A stretch of DNA of 64,000 nt, taken from positions 186,001 through 250,000 of the forward strand of contig NZ_CP084880.1 in NCBI RefSeq assembly GCF_013402815.2, given 5' to 3'. Under the pieces are notes generated by a model. The model was given only the letters and a program-made list of their open reading frames with translations, was not told the DNA's origin and did no database searches. Positions within the stretch are counted from its first letter, which is position 1. Each line of letters opens with the position of its first letter. Positions 1,006 through 26,517 of the stretch are shown here, in pieces. The translations under genes and the position numbers were made by a program. This stretch comes from Natrinema halophilum. Lineage in GTDB: Archaea; Halobacteriota; Halobacteria; Halobacteriales; Natrialbaceae.

Positions 1006-1821
1006 TCACAGAGAGTGTGGGCCGATACCACGGCGCTGTTGTTCGATTAGCAAAACATGGTTCGGATTGACGTTCCCGAGATTTACATCCGTACCAATAT
1101 TCTCGACAAACCAACCGGATACCTCCATCACTTCAGCAAAACTCCCCAATGGCACTTCGAAGAGGACTTTTTCTTTTCCAACTGTGTCAAGAATTGTGTG
1201 GATCTTTTCTACGTACCCATCGTCAACCGACTCGTTCCGTCCGGAAATCGCCGATTCAACCTCTTCCATCTCGTAAATCACAATATCAGCACCGGCGTCG
1301 AGACAGGCAGTCATTTCGTCGATGACGGCATCCGATTTGAGGCTTTCACCATCCGTTTCGGAAGCCTTTTTTCCAATCTCTGCATGGACGTGAAGTCCAT
1401 TTCTTGCGGCGTCAGCGATCAAATCTGTCTTTTTCTCGATCGTCATATCGATCGCTGTCGAAGAGACTTCCACACCTGGACAGCCTGCGGCTGTAACGGC
1501 CTCGAAGAACTCCGCTTCTTGCCCATCAGCGACGGCAGCCTCGAGGAAATTGCCGCCAGTAAACGCGATGATATCGTTCTGATCGAGCAACGCAAGTTTT
1601 TCCGACATTACGTCTGGTTGTTGGAACGGAAACGATGACCAGACGATCTTGTACCAGTCGATCCACTCGCCAGCTACCTCGATTAAATCTTCCAGTCCGT
1701 TTTTTCCACCGACGTTAAACGGGCCATCCCCGATCACCATCGTCAACCCAGTTTGTCGTGGTTTCGTTTCCCGCTCGTCTATCATGAAGTCAAAACGGCT
1801 ATCTAGACTATGTTCTGCCAT
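1006..1821 (-). CDS. ComA-like phosphosulfolactate synthase family protein (paralog 1)
   Basis: A 271-aa protein of the PSL synthase family (PF02679), a TIM barrel whose characterised member in methanogens adds sulfite to phosphoenolpyruvate, the first step of coenzyme M synthesis. Family blocks visible in order are GLTMVI (about 26), the DWYK stretch (about 54), GVEVSSTAIDM, EIGKK (about 150), DAGADIVIYEMEEVE, VLFEVP, DVNLGNVNP and the C-terminal EQQRRG. Where paralog 2 and, as I recall, the methanogen enzyme have RGLT, this copy has TGLT, so a conserved basic residue is lost. A TATA box at 1844-1853 lies 27 bp from ATG 1821, giving a leaderless transcript. Haloarchaea are not known to use coenzyme M. 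The TauE exporter, CoA-ester enzymes and second paralog nearby suggest a role in organosulfur metabolism (inference). Confidence 0.88.
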   Translation of the reverse strand: MAEHSLDSRFDFMIDERETKPRQTGLTMVIGDGPFNVGGKNGLEDLIEVAGEWIDWYKIVWSSFPFQQPDVMSEKLALLDQNDIIAFTGGNFLEAAVADGQEAEFFEAVTAAGCPGVEVSSTAIDMTIEKKTDLIADAARNGLHVHAEIGKKASETDGESLKSDAVIDEMTACLDAGADIVIYEMEEVESAISGRNESVDDGYVEKIHTILDTVGKEKVLFEVPLGSFAEVMEVSGWFVENIGTDVNLGNVNPNHVLLIEQQRRGIGPHSL

Positions 1822-1922: not shown

Positions 1923-2909
1923 TTAGACGTGTGGCAAAACCTCGTCTCCGAGCAGTCGGAGTGACTCCATCGTTCGTTCGTGGGAGAGACCTGGCCACTG
2001 CGTTCGAAAGAGGACGTGGTCGACATCGAGGGTGTCCTGGTATCGCTCGAGTTCTGAACAGATATCGGCTGGTGTTCCAATCAGGAAGCGATCGTCTGAG
2101 AGTGCCTGAAACTGCTGACTCAGTTCTGATTCGTCTGCCATCGATTTGTTTTGGCCCCAGTCCACGTACTTTTTGTACCGTGGTGCAAGGTACTCTTTGG
2201 CTACTTGTTCAGCTTCTTCCGTCGTCGATGCTACGAACGCTTCTCGAATAATCGAGACAGAGGCATCCGCTCCATACTCTTCGCACGTCGGTTGGTACGT
2301 CGACGACACGAGCTCGGCCGTTTCAGTAAGCGTCGAGTGCGGGCCAACGATCCATGTATCTCCGATGCGTGCTGCGCGCTCGACAGCCGGTTGTGAGTGA
2401 GCGGCAACCCATATCGGTACTGGCTGTTCAGATTGTGAGTGGAGCGATACATCGTCCACCGTGATGTGCTCACCATCGAACGAGACCGATTCGTTCGTCC
2501 ACAGCTGCTTGATTACCGCTATCCCCTCCTCAAGTCGTTTCGACCGTTGTGCTTTCGGGATAGAGAAACTTTGAAATTCGACGTCGCGGTAGCCAGCGCC
2601 GACACCGAGAACGACGTCGTCGGCCAGGGCCGAGAGCGTGGCAACGTTTTCAGCGACCTGAATGGGGTGATGGAGTGGGAGCAAAAGCACAGCAGGGCCA
2701 ACCGTCATCGATCCGGCGATGCTCGTCAATCGGGAGAGCAACGGAATCGGCTGGAGATACGCGTAGTCGGCAAGGTAGTGTTGCCCGGTCGTGAGCATGT
2801 CGAAATCCATCTCCTGGGCGACACGGGTCTGATCGGCTACCTCCTGAAATAGCGTCGAGAGATTCGTGCGTGGTGGTGCGTGGTTGAGGAGGTATAGTCC
2901 AAAGCGCAT
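1923..2909 (-). CDS. LLM-class flavin/F420-dependent oxidoreductase
   Basis: A 328-aa luciferase-like monooxygenase family protein (TIM barrel, FMN or F420). Family features include the N-terminal RFGLYLLNH strand, TTGQHYLADY, GPAVLLLPLHHPIQVAENVATL, VVLGVGAGYR and the PVPIWVAAHSQPAVERAAR segment. ATG 2909 is preferred over an upstream TTG at 2918 because a TATA-like run (CTTATCTTTT) lies about 27 bp before it. It sits between tauE-like and comA-like genes on the same strand with gaps of about 100 bp. LLM enzymes include alkanesulfonate monooxygenases (SsuD) as well as F420 dehydrogenases and reductases. In a locus with a sulfite-exporter family protein a desulfonating or C-oxidising role is conceivable, but the sequence alone does not decide it. 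Confidence 0.88.
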   Translation of the reverse strand: MRFGLYLLNHAPPRTNLSTLFQEVADQTRVAQEMDFDMLTTGQHYLADYAYLQPIPLLSRLTSIAGSMTVGPAVLLLPLHHPIQVAENVATLSALADDVVLGVGAGYRDVEFQSFSIPKAQRSKRLEEGIAVIKQLWTNESVSFDGEHITVDDVSLHSQSEQPVPIWVAAHSQPAVERAARIGDTWIVGPHSTLTETAELVSSTYQPTCEEYGADASVSIIREAFVASTTEEAEQVAKEYLAPRYKKYVDWGQNKSMADESELSQQFQALSDDRFLIGTPADICSELERYQDTLDVDHVLFRTQWPGLSHERTMESLRLLGDEVLPHV

Positions 2910-3032
2910 AGGTAACAATTCACAGCAGCGAAAAGATAAGCGTTTATGTTAGGTTTCGACTTGCGGAACGATTTGAAATACGGAGGCCTGACGATACACC
3001 GGGGCCGGTACTACGCGCAATACCAATTTCTG

Positions 3033-3791
3033 TCACAATATCGCATTGGATAGCATCCGGAGAGCGATCAACGCCAAGAACACCTCGACTAATTTCTCGA
3101 ACGTTCGCTGAGGGATGTACGGTCGAACTCTTGAGCCGAGGGGGATGCCGATCGCAACTGGGACACAAAAGATCGCCCCTAGAACGACTTCTTCGAGACC
3201 GAGTTGGTTGGCGGCACGTAATGCACCGAATCGGATCGTATGCAACAGGCCGAACCACGTCACAAGGACGCCTGTGAACACTCGTTTTTCGACCTTTTGC
3301 GCGTGCATATAGGTGATCATTGGCGGGCCGGGCATATTGACGCTCGTTAGAAATCCGCTGACGCCACCAGTGAATATGCTCGCGCCTCGCGTCGTGGCGT
3401 ATCGGTCGACGTCTTTGCCGCTGTTGATGTATAGAAGATATGCAAGCACGTACAGCGAAACAATAACGTACAGGACGTCCACGTCGGAAATCGTGAAAAT
3501 GAGAACACCGACGAGCGTGCCAGCGATGAGAGAGACACCCAACCAGCGTTGCTGCCGAAGTATCTCAAACGGGATGCCTACTTCCATGATGAGGATCATA
3601 TTGCTAAGCCAGATCGGCACGATGAACGCTGTAATCGCGAGATGCGGCGGAAATATCTGGATGAGAATGGGAATCGCAACGAGCCCGATTCCGAACGAGA
3701 GAACACCCTTGACGAACGCTGCGAGCAGAATGCCCGTGAGTGCTAGCAACAGTGAGTAGGTGAGTTCAATCCCCAGAACGGACTCAATCAT
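3033..3791 (-). CDS. TauE/SafE family anion exporter
   Basis: A 252-aa integral membrane protein of the TauE/SafE (DUF81, PF01925) family, with about eight hydrophobic segments and the repeated glycine-rich half-motifs LLAAFVKGVLSFGIGLVAIP and GASIFTGGVSGFLTSVNMPG. Family members export sulfite, sulfoacetate or related anions when organosulfonates are degraded. ATG 3791 overlaps the last 8 bases of the CoA-transferase gene, showing translational coupling. An in-frame extension further upstream would run into that gene and is unlikely. Coupling to the CoA transferase is the main reason to suspect that the pathway releases sulfite. Confidence 0.87.
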   Translation of the reverse strand: MIESVLGIELTYSLLLALTGILLAAFVKGVLSFGIGLVAIPILIQIFPPHLAITAFIVPIWLSNMILIMEVGIPFEILRQQRWLGVSLIAGTLVGVLIFTISDVDVLYVIVSLYVLAYLLYINSGKDVDRYATTRGASIFTGGVSGFLTSVNMPGPPMITYMHAQKVEKRVFTGVLVTWFGLLHTIRFGALRAANQLGLEEVVLGAIFCVPVAIGIPLGSRVRPYIPQRTFEKLVEVFLALIALRMLSNAIL

Positions 3792-5037
3792 CGTTACGGA
3801 TGTCGATCGCACCGCTGTCCTGTAGTTCCGTGATATCGTTTTCGTCGAACCCCATCTCAGCCAAGACTTCTTCAGTGTGTTCTCCAAGGAATGGGGCGCG
3901 CCGAGAGACCGAACTCGGCGTCTTCGAAAAGTTGATCGGGCTTCCAGCGATCATGACTTCCTCACCTGTGTCTGCGTGTTCCACTTCGGGAAGCATGTTA
4001 TTTGCCTTGAAGTGGGGGTCGTCGACGATGTCTTCGACGGTATACACCGGCCCACACGGTACGTCGTCTCCTAACATCTCGAATAGTTCCCTCTTCGAGA
4101 ATTGTTCGGTCCACGAACTAATGATTGGACGGAGCGTATCCTTGTTTTCCAGCCGGTCTGCCTTCTCGGGATACTGCTCGGCCAAGTCAGGACGGTCCAT
4201 GTATTCGCAAAGCGAACGCCACTGGCCGTTGGTGATCGCTGTAATGACGATGTATCCGTCAGTTGTCGGGAACCGATCGTAGGGAAACAGAAGCGGATGA
4301 GAATTCCCCTGAGGGCCGGGTGTATCGCCGCCTACCGAGTATTGATGGACGATCCGTTCAGTCAGCGATAGGACTCCATCGACCATCGCAGTGTCCACGT
4401 ACTGGCCCTCGCCAGTCCGTTCACGATGATGGAGGGCCGATAGGATCCCGACGAGCGTGAGTACCGCTGGGAAGATGTCTCCGATACCAGGACCTGCCTT
4501 CAGTGGGCCGGTTTCTTCGGTACCAGTGATGCTCATGATACCACCCATGGCCTGTGCGATTAGATCGAACGCCGGTTGATCTGCATATGGGGTATCAGTA
4601 ACTCGTGGGTCACCGAACCCCCGAATGGAGGCGTATATTAGCTCTGGGTTGATTTCAGAGAGCCTCTCGTAGGAAAGTCCCAGACCGTCCATCGTTCCCA
4701 CGGTGAAGTTCTCTATCAGGATATCGGCGTCTTCGACGAGTAGTTTGAACACCTCTTTGCCTTCTTCCGTCTTCAGGTTCAGTACGACGCTGCGTTTGTT
4801 TCTGTTGACGCTATTGAAGTATCCGCCGTACGCCTCATCCGGCTGGAGGTGAGGCGCGTTGTCCCGGACGAGATCCCCATCGGGAGATTCTATTTTGATC
4901 ACGTCTGCACCGAGATCACTGAGCGTCATTGTCGCGAACGGCCCTGCCATTACGTGTGTCATATCGATCACACGAAGGCCTGCGAGAGGTCCCGCGTCAC
5001 CGTTTTCCTTCTTCGTCTGTTCTGAGTTATCTACCAT
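3784..5037 (-). CDS. Class III CoA transferase (CaiB/BaiF family)
   Basis: A 417-aa family III acyl-CoA transferase, which moves CoA from one acyl thioester to a free acid. It starts with the classic GLRVIDMTHVMAGPFATMTL block, followed by DLGADVIKIE, NRNKRSVVLNL and ADILIENF. The catalytic Asp by alignment with formyl-CoA transferase is Asp187 in GIGDIFPA. The C-terminal part has VPCGPVYTVEDIVDDPHF and RRAPFLGEHTEEVL. It follows the MaoC gene by 102 bp and overlaps the TauE-family gene by 8 bp. Its likely role is to activate the pathway substrate as a CoA ester. Class III transferases are known in carnitine, mesaconate, oxalate and 3-sulfinopropionate metabolism, and specificity cannot be assigned here. 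Confidence 0.93.
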   Translation of the reverse strand: MVDNSEQTKKENGDAGPLAGLRVIDMTHVMAGPFATMTLSDLGADVIKIESPDGDLVRDNAPHLQPDEAYGGYFNSVNRNKRSVVLNLKTEEGKEVFKLLVEDADILIENFTVGTMDGLGLSYERLSEINPELIYASIRGFGDPRVTDTPYADQPAFDLIAQAMGGIMSITGTEETGPLKAGPGIGDIFPAVLTLVGILSALHHRERTGEGQYVDTAMVDGVLSLTERIVHQYSVGGDTPGPQGNSHPLLFPYDRFPTTDGYIVITAITNGQWRSLCEYMDRPDLAEQYPEKADRLENKDTLRPIISSWTEQFSKRELFEMLGDDVPCGPVYTVEDIVDDPHFKANNMLPEVEHADTGEEVMIAGSPINFSKTPSSVSRRAPFLGEHTEEVLAEMGFDENDITELQDSGAIDIRNDD

Positions 5038-5139: not shown

Positions 5140-5607
5140 TTACTTATCTCTCGTTGGGAGGTCTGCAGAGACGGTTCCAGAAATTACACGTTCGCCTTCC
5201 CCGTTTTCCATGACGAGGTCACAGGTGACACTCGCGTCATCATCGTCTACCGATGCGACTTCAGCATATCCAGTTAGATCGTCGCCGGGCCATGCGATTG
5301 CGTCGAACTGCGTCCGATAGTGAGTCACGGTCGAGAGACCGAGCCACTCGACGACGACGTTACTGAGAAATGCCGTGTTCAGCATTCCCATGGCGAATAC
5401 GTCGTCATATCCCTGTGATGTCGTGAAGTCGTGATCATAGTGAAGGGGGTTGAAATCACCAGAGGCACCGGCATATCGGACGAAGTCAGAGACCTTGATG
5501 TCGCTTATCTCCAGCATTGGACTGCGATCACCGACCTCGAGATCCTCGAAATACGTTTTCCCCGGCGATTCGCCTAGTGTTACGTCAGTTGAAGGTACGT
5601 GTGTCAT
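5140..5607 (-). CDS. MaoC-like (R)-specific enoyl-CoA hydratase, catalytic half
   Basis: A 155-aa hot-dog-fold MaoC dehydratase/hydratase. The hydratase-2 motif is complete: SGDFNPLHYD gives the catalytic Asp and His, and GYDDVFAMGMLNTAFLS forms the overhanging segment. It starts 3 bases after the preceding gene ends, so the two hot-dog proteins are almost certainly co-translated and form a heteromer in which this subunit supplies the active site. It should add or remove water on an enoyl-CoA made by the acyl-CoA dehydrogenase upstream. Confidence 0.9.
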   Translation of the reverse strand: MTHVPSTDVTLGESPGKTYFEDLEVGDRSPMLEISDIKVSDFVRYAGASGDFNPLHYDHDFTTSQGYDDVFAMGMLNTAFLSNVVVEWLGLSTVTHYRTQFDAIAWPGDDLTGYAEVASVDDDDASVTCDLVMENGEGERVISGTVSADLPTRDK

Positions 5608-5610
5608 ATT

Positions 5611-6075
5611 TCACTCCGTGATTATCCGCGTTTTTCTAGTGGTAACAACGGGCTCGCCATCTGCATCTTCGTACTCCGTCTTGAAGATCCCGAAGATGAG
5701 CTCGCCGTTCGATCCCTCTTTTGTGAAGGTTTCCTCGAGGCTACGTTTGGCGGTTAGTTGATCGCCCGCTTCCGGCTGGCGATGAATGTCGTACTCCTGG
5801 GCCCCATGGAGCGCAAGCTGTTCGTCGAAGAATTCGTCAGGCTCGTACGACGGGTGACGAGACCGTTCGAATCGGTACGTCTCTACGAACGTAAGGGGTG
5901 CTGGAATCGAAGAATACCCTTCTTCGGCGGCAGCCGCTTCATCTCTGAATATCTCGTGGTTGCTGTATATCGCATCAGCGAATTCCTCGATCTTGCCTGC
6001 CTCTACCGGGAACGTAAACTCCATCGGCGGCATCTCTTCAAGTTCAGCTAACTGCTCTTCTAACGCGTCTCCCAT
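5611..6075 (-). CDS. MaoC-family N-terminal-type (FAS1_DH) hydratase subunit
   Basis: A 154-aa hot-dog protein resembling the N-terminal dehydratase domain (PF13452) of double hot-dog hydratases: FTFPVEAGKIEEFADAI, PAPLTFVETYRF and a C-terminal strand KTRIITE. The GDxNPxH catalytic motif is absent, so it is probably the structural and substrate-binding half of a heteromeric hydratase with the adjacent gene. The TATA box AAAATTATAA at 6101-6110 is about 29 bp from ATG 6075, so this gene probably heads a transcript that includes the MaoC, CoA-transferase and TauE-family genes. Split pairs like this occur in mesaconyl-CoA and sterol side-chain hydratases. Confidence 0.82.
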   Translation of the reverse strand: MGDALEEQLAELEEMPPMEFTFPVEAGKIEEFADAIYSNHEIFRDEAAAAEEGYSSIPAPLTFVETYRFERSRHPSYEPDEFFDEQLALHGAQEYDIHRQPEAGDQLTAKRSLEETFTKEGSNGELIFGIFKTEYEDADGEPVVTTRKTRIITE

Positions 6076-6295: not shown

Positions 6296-7468
6296 TCACT
6301 TGACTCCCTTTTCGAAGAGGCGGTCTGCGATAATGCGTTGTTGAATCTCGCTCGTCCCGTCGACGATTTTGAGTAGACGTGCATCCCGCCAGTACCGTTC
6401 GAGCGGATAATCTGTTGTGTACCCGTTCCCACCATGGATCTGGATACCTTCGCTGGTCACCTCTTCAGCCATCTCGCTGGCGTAGTATTTCGCCATCGCA
6501 GCTTCGTGGTCACACCGCGCTTCGAGATCTAACCGACCGTCTTCCGTCTGCTTTTTTCGTGCCACGTCGTGGGTCAACTGTCTCGCAGCTTCGATTTTCG
6601 TCGCCATCGTCGCTAGTTTGAAACGGATTGCCTGGAAGTTACCGATCTCCTCACCGAATTGCTCGCGTTCTTGTGCGTACGCAAGCGAGTCCTCGAGGGC
6701 ACCCCTCGCTAGCCCGATCCCGCGTGAAGCGACGTGAATGCGAGCCGGTTCGAAGAAGTTCATGATCTGGTAGAACCCTTTCCCTTCTTCTTCCCCGATG
6801 AGCTTGTTCTCAGGAACACGGACGTTGTCGAAATTCAACTCCCACGTATTCCATCCTTTGAACCCGATCGTGTCCAATTTCTGTCCGGACAGACCGTCGA
6901 CGTCGAATTCGCCTCTAGACTTGTCTACGAGAAATCCGGAAACGCCCTTGTGACCGCGACTCTGATCCCCTGTTCTTGCGTATACACAGATGAAATCGGA
7001 CAGTTTTGCTCCGGTACACCACATCTTCTGGCCATCGATAACGTACTCGTCGCCGTCTTTTTCAGCTGTTGTGGACAGTCCAGCGACGTCACTTCCGGCA
7101 CCTGATTCGGAAATACTGACGGCCTTGAACTTATCACCTGTAGCCATCTTCGGGAGGTACTCTTCTTTCTGTTCGTCCGTCGCTCCAGGAATGTACTGCC
7201 CTCGAGCGATCAGCGTGCCGACGCTCATCCACCCGCGGCACAATTCTTCGACGACGAGGGAATATGCCAGTGGGCCCATTCCGAGTCCGCCGTACTCTTC
7301 TGGAATCATGAGGCCGAAATACCCCATATCGCCCAGCTGGTCGATCAGTTCATCACTCATTCGTTCGCCTTTTGTATCGCGCTCGTTTGCCTCGGGAATG
7401 ACCTCGTTTTCGACGAAGTTTCGAGTCTCATTCCTCAGCATTTCTAGCTCGCTGTCAAGCTGCGTCAT
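6296..7468 (-). CDS. Acyl-CoA dehydrogenase family flavoprotein
   Basis: A 390-aa FAD enzyme with the usual three-part fold: helical N-terminus (IPEANERDTKG), FAD and substrate strands (AVSISESGAGSDVAGLSTTA, YVIDGQKMWCTGA), and a C-terminal helical domain with EGIQIHGGNGYTTDYPLERYWRDA. At the position that carries the catalytic Glu in medium- and short-chain enzymes it reads IVDGTSEIQ, with Asp instead. The start was moved from an upstream ATG at 7525 to 7468 because a TATA box at 7495-7504 sits 27-32 bp before it. Electrons would pass to EtfBA, encoded at 14.6-16.3 kb. A desulfinase-like reaction, as in 3-sulfinopropionyl-CoA metabolism, is an alternative to simple dehydrogenation. Confidence 0.92.
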   Translation of the reverse strand: MTQLDSELEMLRNETRNFVENEVIPEANERDTKGERMSDELIDQLGDMGYFGLMIPEEYGGLGMGPLAYSLVVEELCRGWMSVGTLIARGQYIPGATDEQKEEYLPKMATGDKFKAVSISESGAGSDVAGLSTTAEKDGDEYVIDGQKMWCTGAKLSDFICVYARTGDQSRGHKGVSGFLVDKSRGEFDVDGLSGQKLDTIGFKGWNTWELNFDNVRVPENKLIGEEEGKGFYQIMNFFEPARIHVASRGIGLARGALEDSLAYAQEREQFGEEIGNFQAIRFKLATMATKIEAARQLTHDVARKKQTEDGRLDLEARCDHEAAMAKYYASEMAEEVTSEGIQIHGGNGYTTDYPLERYWRDARLLKIVDGTSEIQQRIIADRLFEKGVK

Positions 7469-7494
7469 GGTACGTGTGACCGAATTAGCTCGGG

Positions 7495-7504
7495 GTATAT
7501 AATG
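7495..7504 (-). promoter_or_regulatory. TATA box of the acyl-CoA dehydrogenase gene
   Basis: CATTATATAC on the minus strand ends about 27 bp before ATG 7468. It would lie inside the coding region if the upstream ATG at 7525 were used, so it decides the start. Confidence 0.6.
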
Positions 7505-7583
7505 GTTTTGTTCAGACGAATTCATTTCTCTGGCTAACCGGCCGAGAGGGAGGCCCTAACAACCATTTCCGAATATGTGGCCG

Positions 7584-7598
7584 TTCCACAATATGGAA
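7584..7598. promoter_or_regulatory. IclR-type operator, copy 1 (iclR promoter)
   Basis: The palindrome TTCCACAATATGGAA lies directly before the TATA-like run AATATAATAT of the IclR gene, 34 bp from its ATG. It is in the divergent region shared with the acyl-CoA dehydrogenase promoter. Three more copies lie downstream of the regulator gene. Its position suggests autoregulation. Confidence 0.65.
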
Positions 7599-7631
7599 AA
7601 TATAATATGGTGCCGACCTCTAACCCATACT

Positions 7632-8402
7632 ATGGAAAAAGAAAGCCAGACCATCCAAGCGGGAGAAAAACTCCTGACCGTTATCGAGGCCATTCAGGAA
7701 CTCGATGGCGCCCGTGTTTCCGAACTCGCCGACCACCTCGGATACACCAAAAGCACGGTCCACCGCTATCTAGCCACGCTTGAATCACAAGAGTACGTCG
7801 TGAAGGAGCGAGGAACCTATCATATTGGACTTCGATTCTTAGATATTGGAGAACACGCGGCTACGCGCAAAAAAGCGTATACAATGGCAGAGTCAAAGGT
7901 TGCCGAACTTGCCGAAGAAACACAGGAGAGGGCGCAATTCGTCGTCGAAGAGCACGGAAAAGCTGTGTACGTCCATCGGGAGATCGGCAACAACGCCGTC
8001 AGGACCGATCCTGGTCTCGGTAAACGGATTCCGATTCACGCTGCAGCTGCAGGAAAAGCAATCCTCGCATATACGCCAGAAGAGAAGGTGCAACACATCA
8101 TTGAAACCAGAGGATTGCCAGCAATGACCGAGCATACGATAACGGATCCCGAGGAACTGTTTGAGGACCTCGAGCTCACTCGCGACCGGGGATACACGAT
8201 CAACGAAAACGAAATCCTCGAAGGACTTTCGGCTATTGGCGTTGCGATCCAGGACGAAAATGAACGTGCTATCGGGGCGCTAAGCGTCTCTGGTCCAACT
8301 CATCGAATGAAAGGAGAGTGGTTCAAAGAAGACCTCCCGAGTCTGTTGATGGGAACAGCGAATGAACTCGAATTGAATACGTCTCATTCTCACCGGTTGT
8401 AG
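7632..8402 (+). CDS. IclR family transcriptional regulator
   Basis: A 256-aa regulator. Residues 8-70 form the winged helix-turn-helix (LLTVIEAIQELDGARVSELADHLGYTKSTVHRYLATLESQEYVV), and residues 80-250 the effector-binding domain (PIHAAAAGKAILAY, GYTINENEILEGLSAIGVAI, ALSVSGPTHR). ATG 7632 is chosen because a TATA-like run ends about 27 bp upstream; a longer frame from 7575 would start before the promoter. It is divergent from the acyl-CoA dehydrogenase gene and most likely controls the minus-strand catabolic genes and itself through the TTCCAYARTATGGAA palindrome. The effector is probably a pathway acid or CoA ester (family knowledge). Confidence 0.94.
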   Translation: MEKESQTIQAGEKLLTVIEAIQELDGARVSELADHLGYTKSTVHRYLATLESQEYVVKERGTYHIGLRFLDIGEHAATRKKAYTMAESKVAELAEETQERAQFVVEEHGKAVYVHREIGNNAVRTDPGLGKRIPIHAAAAGKAILAYTPEEKVQHIIETRGLPAMTEHTITDPEELFEDLELTRDRGYTINENEILEGLSAIGVAIQDENERAIGALSVSGPTHRMKGEWFKEDLPSLLMGTANELELNTSHSHRL

Positions 8403-24566: not shown

Positions 24567-25397
24567 TCAGGAAACTCGGTTCGAGAAGGAGAACGTGCCC
24601 ATCTTCCGGCGCTGTTGTTCGAGTGGCATGATGTATTCCGGATTCACATTTCCAAGATTTACCTCCTTCCCGACGGTGTCGATGAACCACCACGTCGTTC
24701 CGAGAACGTCGTAGTAATCACCGAAGGGGACTTCGAAGATGACGTTCTCAATTCCCACGTTATCGACGATCGCATCGACCACCTCGACGGCCTTGTCACT
24801 CGATTCCTCGTCCCGAATTTGGCTCTCGACCTCCTGCATCTCGAAGATCGTCATGTCCGCTCCGGCATCCAGACTCTGTTGGAGTTCGTCGACAGCGTCC
24901 CCGATGTCTATCCCTTCGTCGACGTTTTCTCGAACGGCCTTCTTGCCGATCTCCGAGATGACGTAGAAGCCGAGCTCGTCGGCTCGCTCGATCAGTTCCA
25001 TCTTCTCTTCGGGCGCCATATCGACGACGGTCGAGGAGATCTCGATGCCCGGGATCCCGACGTCGCGAAGGTGTTCCATGTACCGGGTCGTGCATCCCTC
25101 ATGGAAGGCGGCCTCGACTGTAATTCCACCGGGGAACGCGGTGATATCGTGCTCGTCGAACATCATCAATTTCGACTGGAGCAGTTCCGGTGGCTCAAGT
25201 GCGAAGGCGCCGTAGGCAAACTTGTACAGATCGATGTAGGGCCCGATGTACTGGCAGAGGTCCTCTACGTAGTGTTCTCCCTCGATCTGAAACATCGCCC
25301 CTTCCGCCATCGTAAGTCCTCGTTGTCGTGGCTTCTTGGTGCGATCTTCGTGCATGAAGGAGTAGTCCTCGCCCATGTACGTGAATTGGCTATCCAT
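24567..25397 (-). CDS. ComA-like phosphosulfolactate synthase family protein (paralog 2)
   Basis: About 276 aa, same family and block order as the 1.0-1.8 kb gene: RGLTMAEGAMF, IDLYKFAYGAFAL, AFPGGITVEAAF, GIEISSTVVDMAPEEKMEL, EIGKK, DAGADMTIFEMQEVE, VIFEVPFGDYYD, EVNLGNVNPEYIMPLEQQRR. It keeps the Arg of RGLT that paralog 1 lacks. ATG 25397 is preferred over GTG 25427, because the TATA-like AGATATATAC at 25429-25438 lies directly before the GTG and about 30 bp before the ATG. An IS630-type remnant sits upstream. Both proteins probably share a fold and an anionic or sulfite chemistry, but their substrates may not be phosphoenolpyruvate. Confidence 0.88.
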   Translation of the reverse strand: MDSQFTYMGEDYSFMHEDRTKKPRQRGLTMAEGAMFQIEGEHYVEDLCQYIGPYIDLYKFAYGAFALEPPELLQSKLMMFDEHDITAFPGGITVEAAFHEGCTTRYMEHLRDVGIPGIEISSTVVDMAPEEKMELIERADELGFYVISEIGKKAVRENVDEGIDIGDAVDELQQSLDAGADMTIFEMQEVESQIRDEESSDKAVEVVDAIVDNVGIENVIFEVPFGDYYDVLGTTWWFIDTVGKEVNLGNVNPEYIMPLEQQRRKMGTFSFSNRVS

Positions 25398-25520
25398 ATC
25401 TGACACACTATGTTTACTTTCATCCACTGTATATATCTATTCACTGGATGTGCACTTCTCGGGCGGGGAAACCGTCGGACGGCTCGTTGCTGATCCGCGC
25501 CATCCGGGCTAAAGTAGACG

Positions 25521-26517
25521 TTAGAAATAGTTGCTCGTTTCAGGGATAGAGAATTTATCAAAAGCGGTATCGATCGTTGTTGTGAGCTCAGAAAGAGGGC
25601 CGAAGGATCGGTTGCTACGGGCTGATTGCAGCTGTCTCCAGCACTCTTCGACTGGGTTGAATTCCGGTGAATACGCTGGTAACGTGACGAAGGCGAAGTC
25701 GTCACGGCCGCCAGGTCCGTGACGGCCGACGCCAGGAAATACGGTGCTCCCTCTAACACAATGATCAAATCATCTCTGAACTCTTTTCATGACACTAGGA
25801 TTAGATGTTCCGCATGTTCGGCGGTCGCGTACTCTTCAAATTGAGAGAAAAAGCGATCACCGTTCTCGGTGATCGTGCCCAACAGACACGTCTCATCGCG
25901 GTGTCTGGAGAGTTCGACCGTCGGCCGCGTGCCGCGCGGAAACCATTCGGCACGCGGCTCAACTTGCACAGATTGCTTCGTTCGATCGATACAGACTACT
26001 GTGGCGTCCATCGCCCGCCACTTTTTGAGTTCTTCGTGGAACATTTCTTGTTCGTCAGTCTCAGCTTCAGCGGCTGTGCGGCGTGGTTTTTGATAGCTCA
26101 ATCTCGCCTCTTTGAGCAACCGCCGGCAACTCGGGACTGAGTAATCAACATCGTCGATCTCATCGAAATACTGCTGGACGAGCGCCGGCGTCCACGCCGG
26201 CGCGTCAACCCCAACTTCTTCGGGTGAGTCGTGGATAGCTTCTCTGAATTCTTTTACTCTTTTCCTGAGAATTTTCGCTTTCTCTCAGACTGATGATCAT
26301 CAGTCACAGCCTGCTCAAGTGACTCGTCCGTGTCGAATCGCTTGAGCCAGCTATAGATCGTGCGTCGCTGACTGTCGTACCACTCGGCTAGTTCAGTCTG
26401 TGTAATACTATTTTTGTACGCAATTGCCACTAAGAGCCGTTGTATCGGCTTCTTTTCCACCACGTTGTCGAGAGCATCTTGCAATTCCTCGACAGAGACC
26501 TCGTCGAGATGATCCAC
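25521..26517 (-). pseudogene. IS630-type transposase remnant
   Basis: The N-terminal helix-turn-helix is open from ATG 26517 (VAIAYKNSITQTELAEWYDS, RRTIYSWLKRF). The frame shifts near 26260 to FREAIHDSPEEVGVDAPAWT, which runs through RRLLKEARLSYQKPRR, the DDE-type MDATVVCIDRTKQSVQVEPR and CLLGTITENGDRFFSQF. It meets an in-frame TGA near 25785 (LILVS, stop, KEFRDDLIIVLEGAPYF), then shifts again near 25700 to FVTLPAYSPEFNPVEECWRQ and the usual C-terminus ending NYF. It therefore has two frameshifts and one stop. I could not find convincing terminal inverted repeats. Confidence 0.85.

Follow-up and report, generated by a model that had tools for sequence, protein, structure and literature searches.

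The closest described relatives of the proteins reported here are the phosphosulfolactate synthases ComA, as representatives of which we take the enzymes of Methanocaldococcus jannaschii (PDB 1qwg), Bacillus subtilis (YitD, PDB 1u83) and Xanthobacter Py2 (Xaut_5052). The chemistry of the family is reported to be the addition of sulfite next to a carboxylate (Graham 2002). The phosphatase ComB belongs to the methanogen and B. subtilis pathways, and in bacterial coenzyme M pathways other enzymes follow ComA. The yitCD operon of B. subtilis is inferred to be responsible for phosphosulfolactate synthesis, about 5% of the dry weight of the spores being sulfolactate (PMC517825).

Three ComA-family genes were found in Natrinema halophilum (genome of 4.84 Mb in three contigs, 99.98% complete), two of them (P1 and P2) within the analysed stretch of 64,000 nucleotides, hereafter the window, and the third (P3) about 21 kb to its left (Table 1). 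P1 belongs to Pfam family ComA (PF02679) with 194.3 bits at a gathering cut-off of 25.2, and its AlphaFold2 model is a single-domain (beta/alpha)8 barrel (mean pLDDT 87) that matched 1qwg in Foldseek (E 2.8e-18, TM 0.75/0.81). P1 and P2 are 44% identical. The motifs read exactly as given in the preliminary description, KPRQTGLTMVI in P1 and KPRQRGLTMAE in P2; EIGKK and DAGAD (within LDAGAD) are kept in both, and the differences it had noted at WYK/LYK and in the GG regions were confirmed. P2 is apparently a lone gene without a catabolic cluster like that of P1. Directly upstream of it lie transposase-type gene fragments (DDE_3, HTH_33, HTH_23), suggesting mobility.

Table 1. Coordinates of the features described in the text (window positions unless a contig or locus is given).
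Feature	Position	Strand	Basis or remark
Divergent IclR-family regulator, probable cluster regulator	7575..8402	+	PF01614/PF09339
Acyl-CoA dehydrogenase, first cluster gene	6296..7525	-	Pfam; NCBIfam matches all far below cut-off
MaoC2, FAS1-like/HadA-type hydratase subunit	5611..6075	-	PF13452, 84 bits
MaoC1, MaoC/HadB-type hydratase subunit	5140..5607	-	PF01575, 53 bits
Class III CoA-transferase	3784..5037	-	nearest named model succinyl-CoA:mesaconate CoA-transferase, 531 of 700 bits
TauE/SafE-family membrane protein, putative sulfite or anion exporter	3033..3791	-	PF01925, 78.6 bits
LLM1, luciferase-like flavin/F420 oxidoreductase	1923..2918	-	PF00296
P1, ComA-family TIM-barrel protein, 271 aa	1006..1821	-	PF02679; ATG start
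T24 codon of P1 (ACT; R13 of M. jannaschii ComA)	1752-1750	-	
Aldehyde dehydrogenase, 469 aa	1..906, on to C2:185497 left of window	-	PF00171, 556 bits
DUF3604 protein, 717 aa	9417-11570	+	
P2, second paralogue	24567..25403	-	
Transposase-type gene fragments	25787-26517	-	
P3, third ComA-family gene	C2:164239-165072 (L004:14239-15072)	-	
Molybdopterin oxidoreductase	C2:176462-177718		nearest SorT sulfite dehydrogenase, 212 of 570 bits
Proteobacterial ComA branch adjoining sulfatase genes	L114:8477-10759; L120:9902-12189; L097:8437-10768		
Frame-broken ComA-like gene, haloarchaeon	L175:8122-8916 (G186:C48)		
ComA-like fragment, second haloarchaeon	L199:9155-9475 (G633:C4)		

The preliminary description had proposed that P1, unlike P2, lost a conserved anion-binding arginine and thereby changed its substrate, T24 of P1 standing where P2 has R. 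It was right about an arginine in methanogen ComA, as M. jannaschii ComA reads QRGLT, but the column is anything but conserved. A scan of genome contigs with patterns derived from P1 and P2 matched nothing related, and a second scan based on P1, P2 and a Chelativorans sequence (pattern KPR[QR][TRQ]GLTM) gave 78 loci; since this pattern biases the T24 column, the column statistics were redone without them. In 57 homologues collected free of motif bias the column had an entropy of 2.98 bits and was more variable than 99% of all columns; overall the figure was 98-99%. The 23 of these that carry the synthase signature (see below) showed T5 V5 I4 K3 R2 A2 E1 D1, so that Arg at position 13 occurred in only two of them and does not define the group; P1 has T.

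The proteins encoded next to comB are, by virtue of this linkage, probable true phosphosulfolactate synthases, and among them too the column varied: 31 comB-linked sequences showed T7 R7 V5 I4 Q3 A2 K1 E1 D1, 13 of them stemming from the scan that was biased towards T, R or Q. In methanogens with comA directly adjoining comB the residue is A, T, V, I or K, and YitD of B. subtilis has T, the same as P1. On a tree of 42 tips, 23 changes were needed at the T24 column and one at D20. An alignment with this arginine variable among proven ComA enzymes was what the preliminary description had named as refuting its proposal, and on this ground the proposal is refuted. Structure prediction, one of its suggested checks, pointed in the same direction. 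Strand 1 of the P1 model comprises residues 27-31 and T24 lies three residues earlier, at the N-terminal end of this strand and of the barrel, and is therefore predicted opposite the catalytic face, which in such barrels is the strand C-terminal side; the family-invariant residues K58, E118, S120, E148, E184, E222 and N250 of P1 were modelled at strand C-termini. The position of T24 alone is not decisive, because ComA active sites reportedly lie at trimer interfaces according to the 1qwg structure paper; it is the variability that decides. As judged from the sequences, the T/R difference between P1 and P2 is uninformative about substrate, because the column is among the most freely changing of the ComA family, and the specific claim should not be carried further.

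Evidence for a changed function came from other positions and from the phylogeny. P1 and P2 grouped together (100/98). Their clade fell outside that of the synthases (81/96) and adjoined a type found in haloarchaea and Salinibacter that includes P3 (93/94), the bootstrap values of this tree being not fully settled. Nine residues (D20, T76, G107, R170, G173, Q212, R244, D246 and T247) were all present in 31 of 31 comB-linked homologues, D246 being E in some other members of the synthase group. None of the nine was found in P1, which has G, N, T, E, E, S, G, H and S at these positions in order, or in P2, which has G, I, T, Q, E, T, G, F and S. Against the curated equivalog model TIGR03849 (arch_ComA, cut-off 280 bits) P1, P2 and P3 scored 155.6, 152.1 and 99.9 bits, all below the cut-off. 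In addition, no comB phosphatase gene (PF04029) was detected in the 99.98% complete genome by a search that was positive for methanogens and two haloarchaea. Because the nine residues are lost, arch_ComA was failed, the clade lies outside the synthases and comB is absent, neither P1 nor P2 is probably a phosphosulfolactate synthase. This agrees with the part of the preliminary description that assigned P1 another, perhaps non-phosphorylated substrate; signature, arch_ComA score and clade support it, while its basis in T24 and its restriction to P1 fall away, as the changed substrate is likely for both proteins. The proposal that T24 altered the substrate choice of P1 as an otherwise ordinary relative of phosphosulfolactate synthase fits its family membership and fold. 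It has next to no probability given the hypervariable column, where T or another residue than Arg occurs in comB-linked enzymes and in YitD, the loss of the nine synthase residues, the lack of comB and the arch_ComA score below cut-off.

P1 and P2 have both retained K43, E103, S105, E133, K137, E168, E205, N224, N227, E237 and R240, and the core residues of P1 lie at strand C-termini in the model. This pattern suggests that the metal/enolate core was retained in both proteins and that the anion-binding loops were rebuilt, the roles of individual active-site residues being putative ones suggested by conservation. A retained core including K137 would also be expected if P1 and P2 were phosphosulfolactate synthases with a rebuilt pocket that make sulfolactate as an osmolyte with the help of an unrelated phosphatase. 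Haloarchaea with comB adjoining a synthase-type ComA do exist. However, the comB-linked haloarchaeal proteins keep Arg170, Gln212 and Arg244, all of which are replaced in P1 and P2, and P1 lies within a catabolic cluster, making this explanation quite improbable. Synthase-type ComA with comB close by was seen in the haloarchaeal loci L007 (G226) and L011/L171 (G256), and some haloarchaea may therefore make sulfolactate.

P1 is part of a cluster of 12 co-directional genes on the minus strand with intergenic gaps of -8 to 220 nt. Reading leftwards, genes for an acyl-CoA dehydrogenase, two MaoC-type hydratase subunits, a class III CoA-transferase, a TauE-family protein and an LLM oxidoreductase precede P1, which is followed by genes for an aldehyde dehydrogenase, a second LLM protein, a TAXI receptor, a fused TRAP permease and a type II haloacid dehalogenase. 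Since gaps of about 100 nt separate several of the genes, more than one transcript is possible. A DUF3604 gene lies beside the cluster. The acyl-CoA dehydrogenase was considered as a 3-sulfinopropanoyl-CoA desulfinase and rejected, as it reached 264 of 600 bits, below its score to acryloyl-CoA reductase. A plasmid of Halomarina carries the cluster CoA-transferase (68%), a match to the acyl-CoA dehydrogenase and more distant LLM and IclR genes; no ComA gene was found on it, and ComA was absent from haloarchaeal loci with TRAP/CoA-transferase/MaoC gene groups. Apart from those of N. halophilum itself, no P1/P2-type protein was detected among 125 genomes of its family or among sampled genomes of the order (392) and the class (292). 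As no orthologue was found elsewhere, the link between P1 and its cluster is seen in a single genome, with no second locus for a synteny comparison.

The separate branch and the neighbouring genes for carboxylic acid breakdown indicate that the job of P1 probably differs from that of the coenzyme M enzyme. In our preferred explanation, to which we assign a probability of roughly two in three, P1, which forms a divergent ComA clade with P2, takes part in the catabolism of carboxylates by an addition/elimination step of the enolate type. P1 would most likely keep the enolate chemistry of the family at the C-terminal barrel face, with rebuilt substrate-binding loops, and would probably catalyse one step beside a carboxylate, be it an addition, elimination or lyase reaction. 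The surrounding pathway, presumably IclR-controlled, may import a carboxylic acid by TAXI-TRAP and process it by CoA transfer, dehydrogenation, hydration and aldehyde oxidation. Retained enolate chemistry, the catabolic role and the membership of one pathway are what we infer from core and neighbourhood.

A parallel for the catabolic reading is that other non-synthase branches lie beside MmgE/PrpD, TctC, PrpF, TcuA, sulfatase or CoA-transferase genes; these neighbourhoods are examples that were inspected, outside any controlled enrichment test. A proteobacterial branch adjoins sulfatase genes at three loci, together with TctC receptors at L114 and L120 and alone at L097, and possibly has a separate catabolic role. 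Another branch adjoins MmgE/PrpD with PrpF, tricarboxylate transporters or TcuA. In two haloarchaea, a frame-broken ComA-like gene (L175, near which there are also HMGL-like and lyase genes) and a related fragment (L199) were found upstream of a CoA-transferase gene, directly so and of class III in the former. None of the fragments checked was of the P1 type: the one in G628 is a degenerate gene of the P3 type, and those of G186 and G633 resemble a protein of G498 (L055) more than P1.

A more specific version of the catabolic explanation is that P1 runs a ComA-type Michael addition backwards and releases sulfite from a sulfonated carboxylate by beta-elimination, whereupon sulfite would be exported by TauE or oxidised by a sulfite dehydrogenase and the carbon skeleton degraded by the CoA enzymes. 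The TauE-family gene within the cluster, the SorT-like molybdopterin oxidoreductase a few kb beyond it, the family chemistry of sulfite addition beside a carboxylate and the catalytic-face core kept in P1 are consistent with this. On the other hand, PF01925 covers anion permeases broadly, the SorT-like gene scores far below the cut-off and lies outside the cluster, known desulfonation genes are absent from the cluster and TauE was not found adjoining other ComA homologues. Sulfite release is thus possible, though unlikely. Somewhat more doubtful still is the wider proposal that P1 and P2 represent a new catabolic ComA subfamily, in which an enolate-type lyase takes sulfite off a sulfonated acid in a CoA-linked haloarchaeal pathway, an apparently undescribed desulfonation route; a literature search for ComA homologues in sulfonate catabolism turned up no paper.

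The name "phosphosulfolactate synthase" is often given in database records to any protein of PF02679. Among the sequences examined, the nine-residue signature together with comB linkage sets the probable synthases apart from five further branches, the majority of them with carboxylate-catabolism neighbourhoods. If these branches do apply ComA chemistry to other acids, they would be a group of wrongly annotated enzymes open to testing, among them perhaps a haloarchaeal sulfonate degrader.

Compared with phosphosulfolactate synthase ComA, P1 is alike in fold, Pfam family and catalytic-face core residues, but differs in the nine signature residues, the arch_ComA score, the missing comB and the catabolic neighbourhood. 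The P3 type is likely the sister clade of P1 and P2 (93/94) and like P1 has G in place of D20. P1 keeps K137 and N227 and has CoA-enzyme neighbours, whereas the P3 type has Q and F at these positions in 30 of 30 sequences and pairs with MmgE/PrpD, genes of which lie near it in Halorussus and Salinibacter; in N. halophilum P3 adjoins an ORF with the MmgE/PrpD C-terminal domain only. With the bacterial non-synthase branches, linked either to sulfatase and TctC or to MmgE/PrpD and PrpF, P1 has in common the loss of R170, Q212 and R244 and a catabolic neighbourhood, but these branches form separate clades with residues of their own at the same positions.
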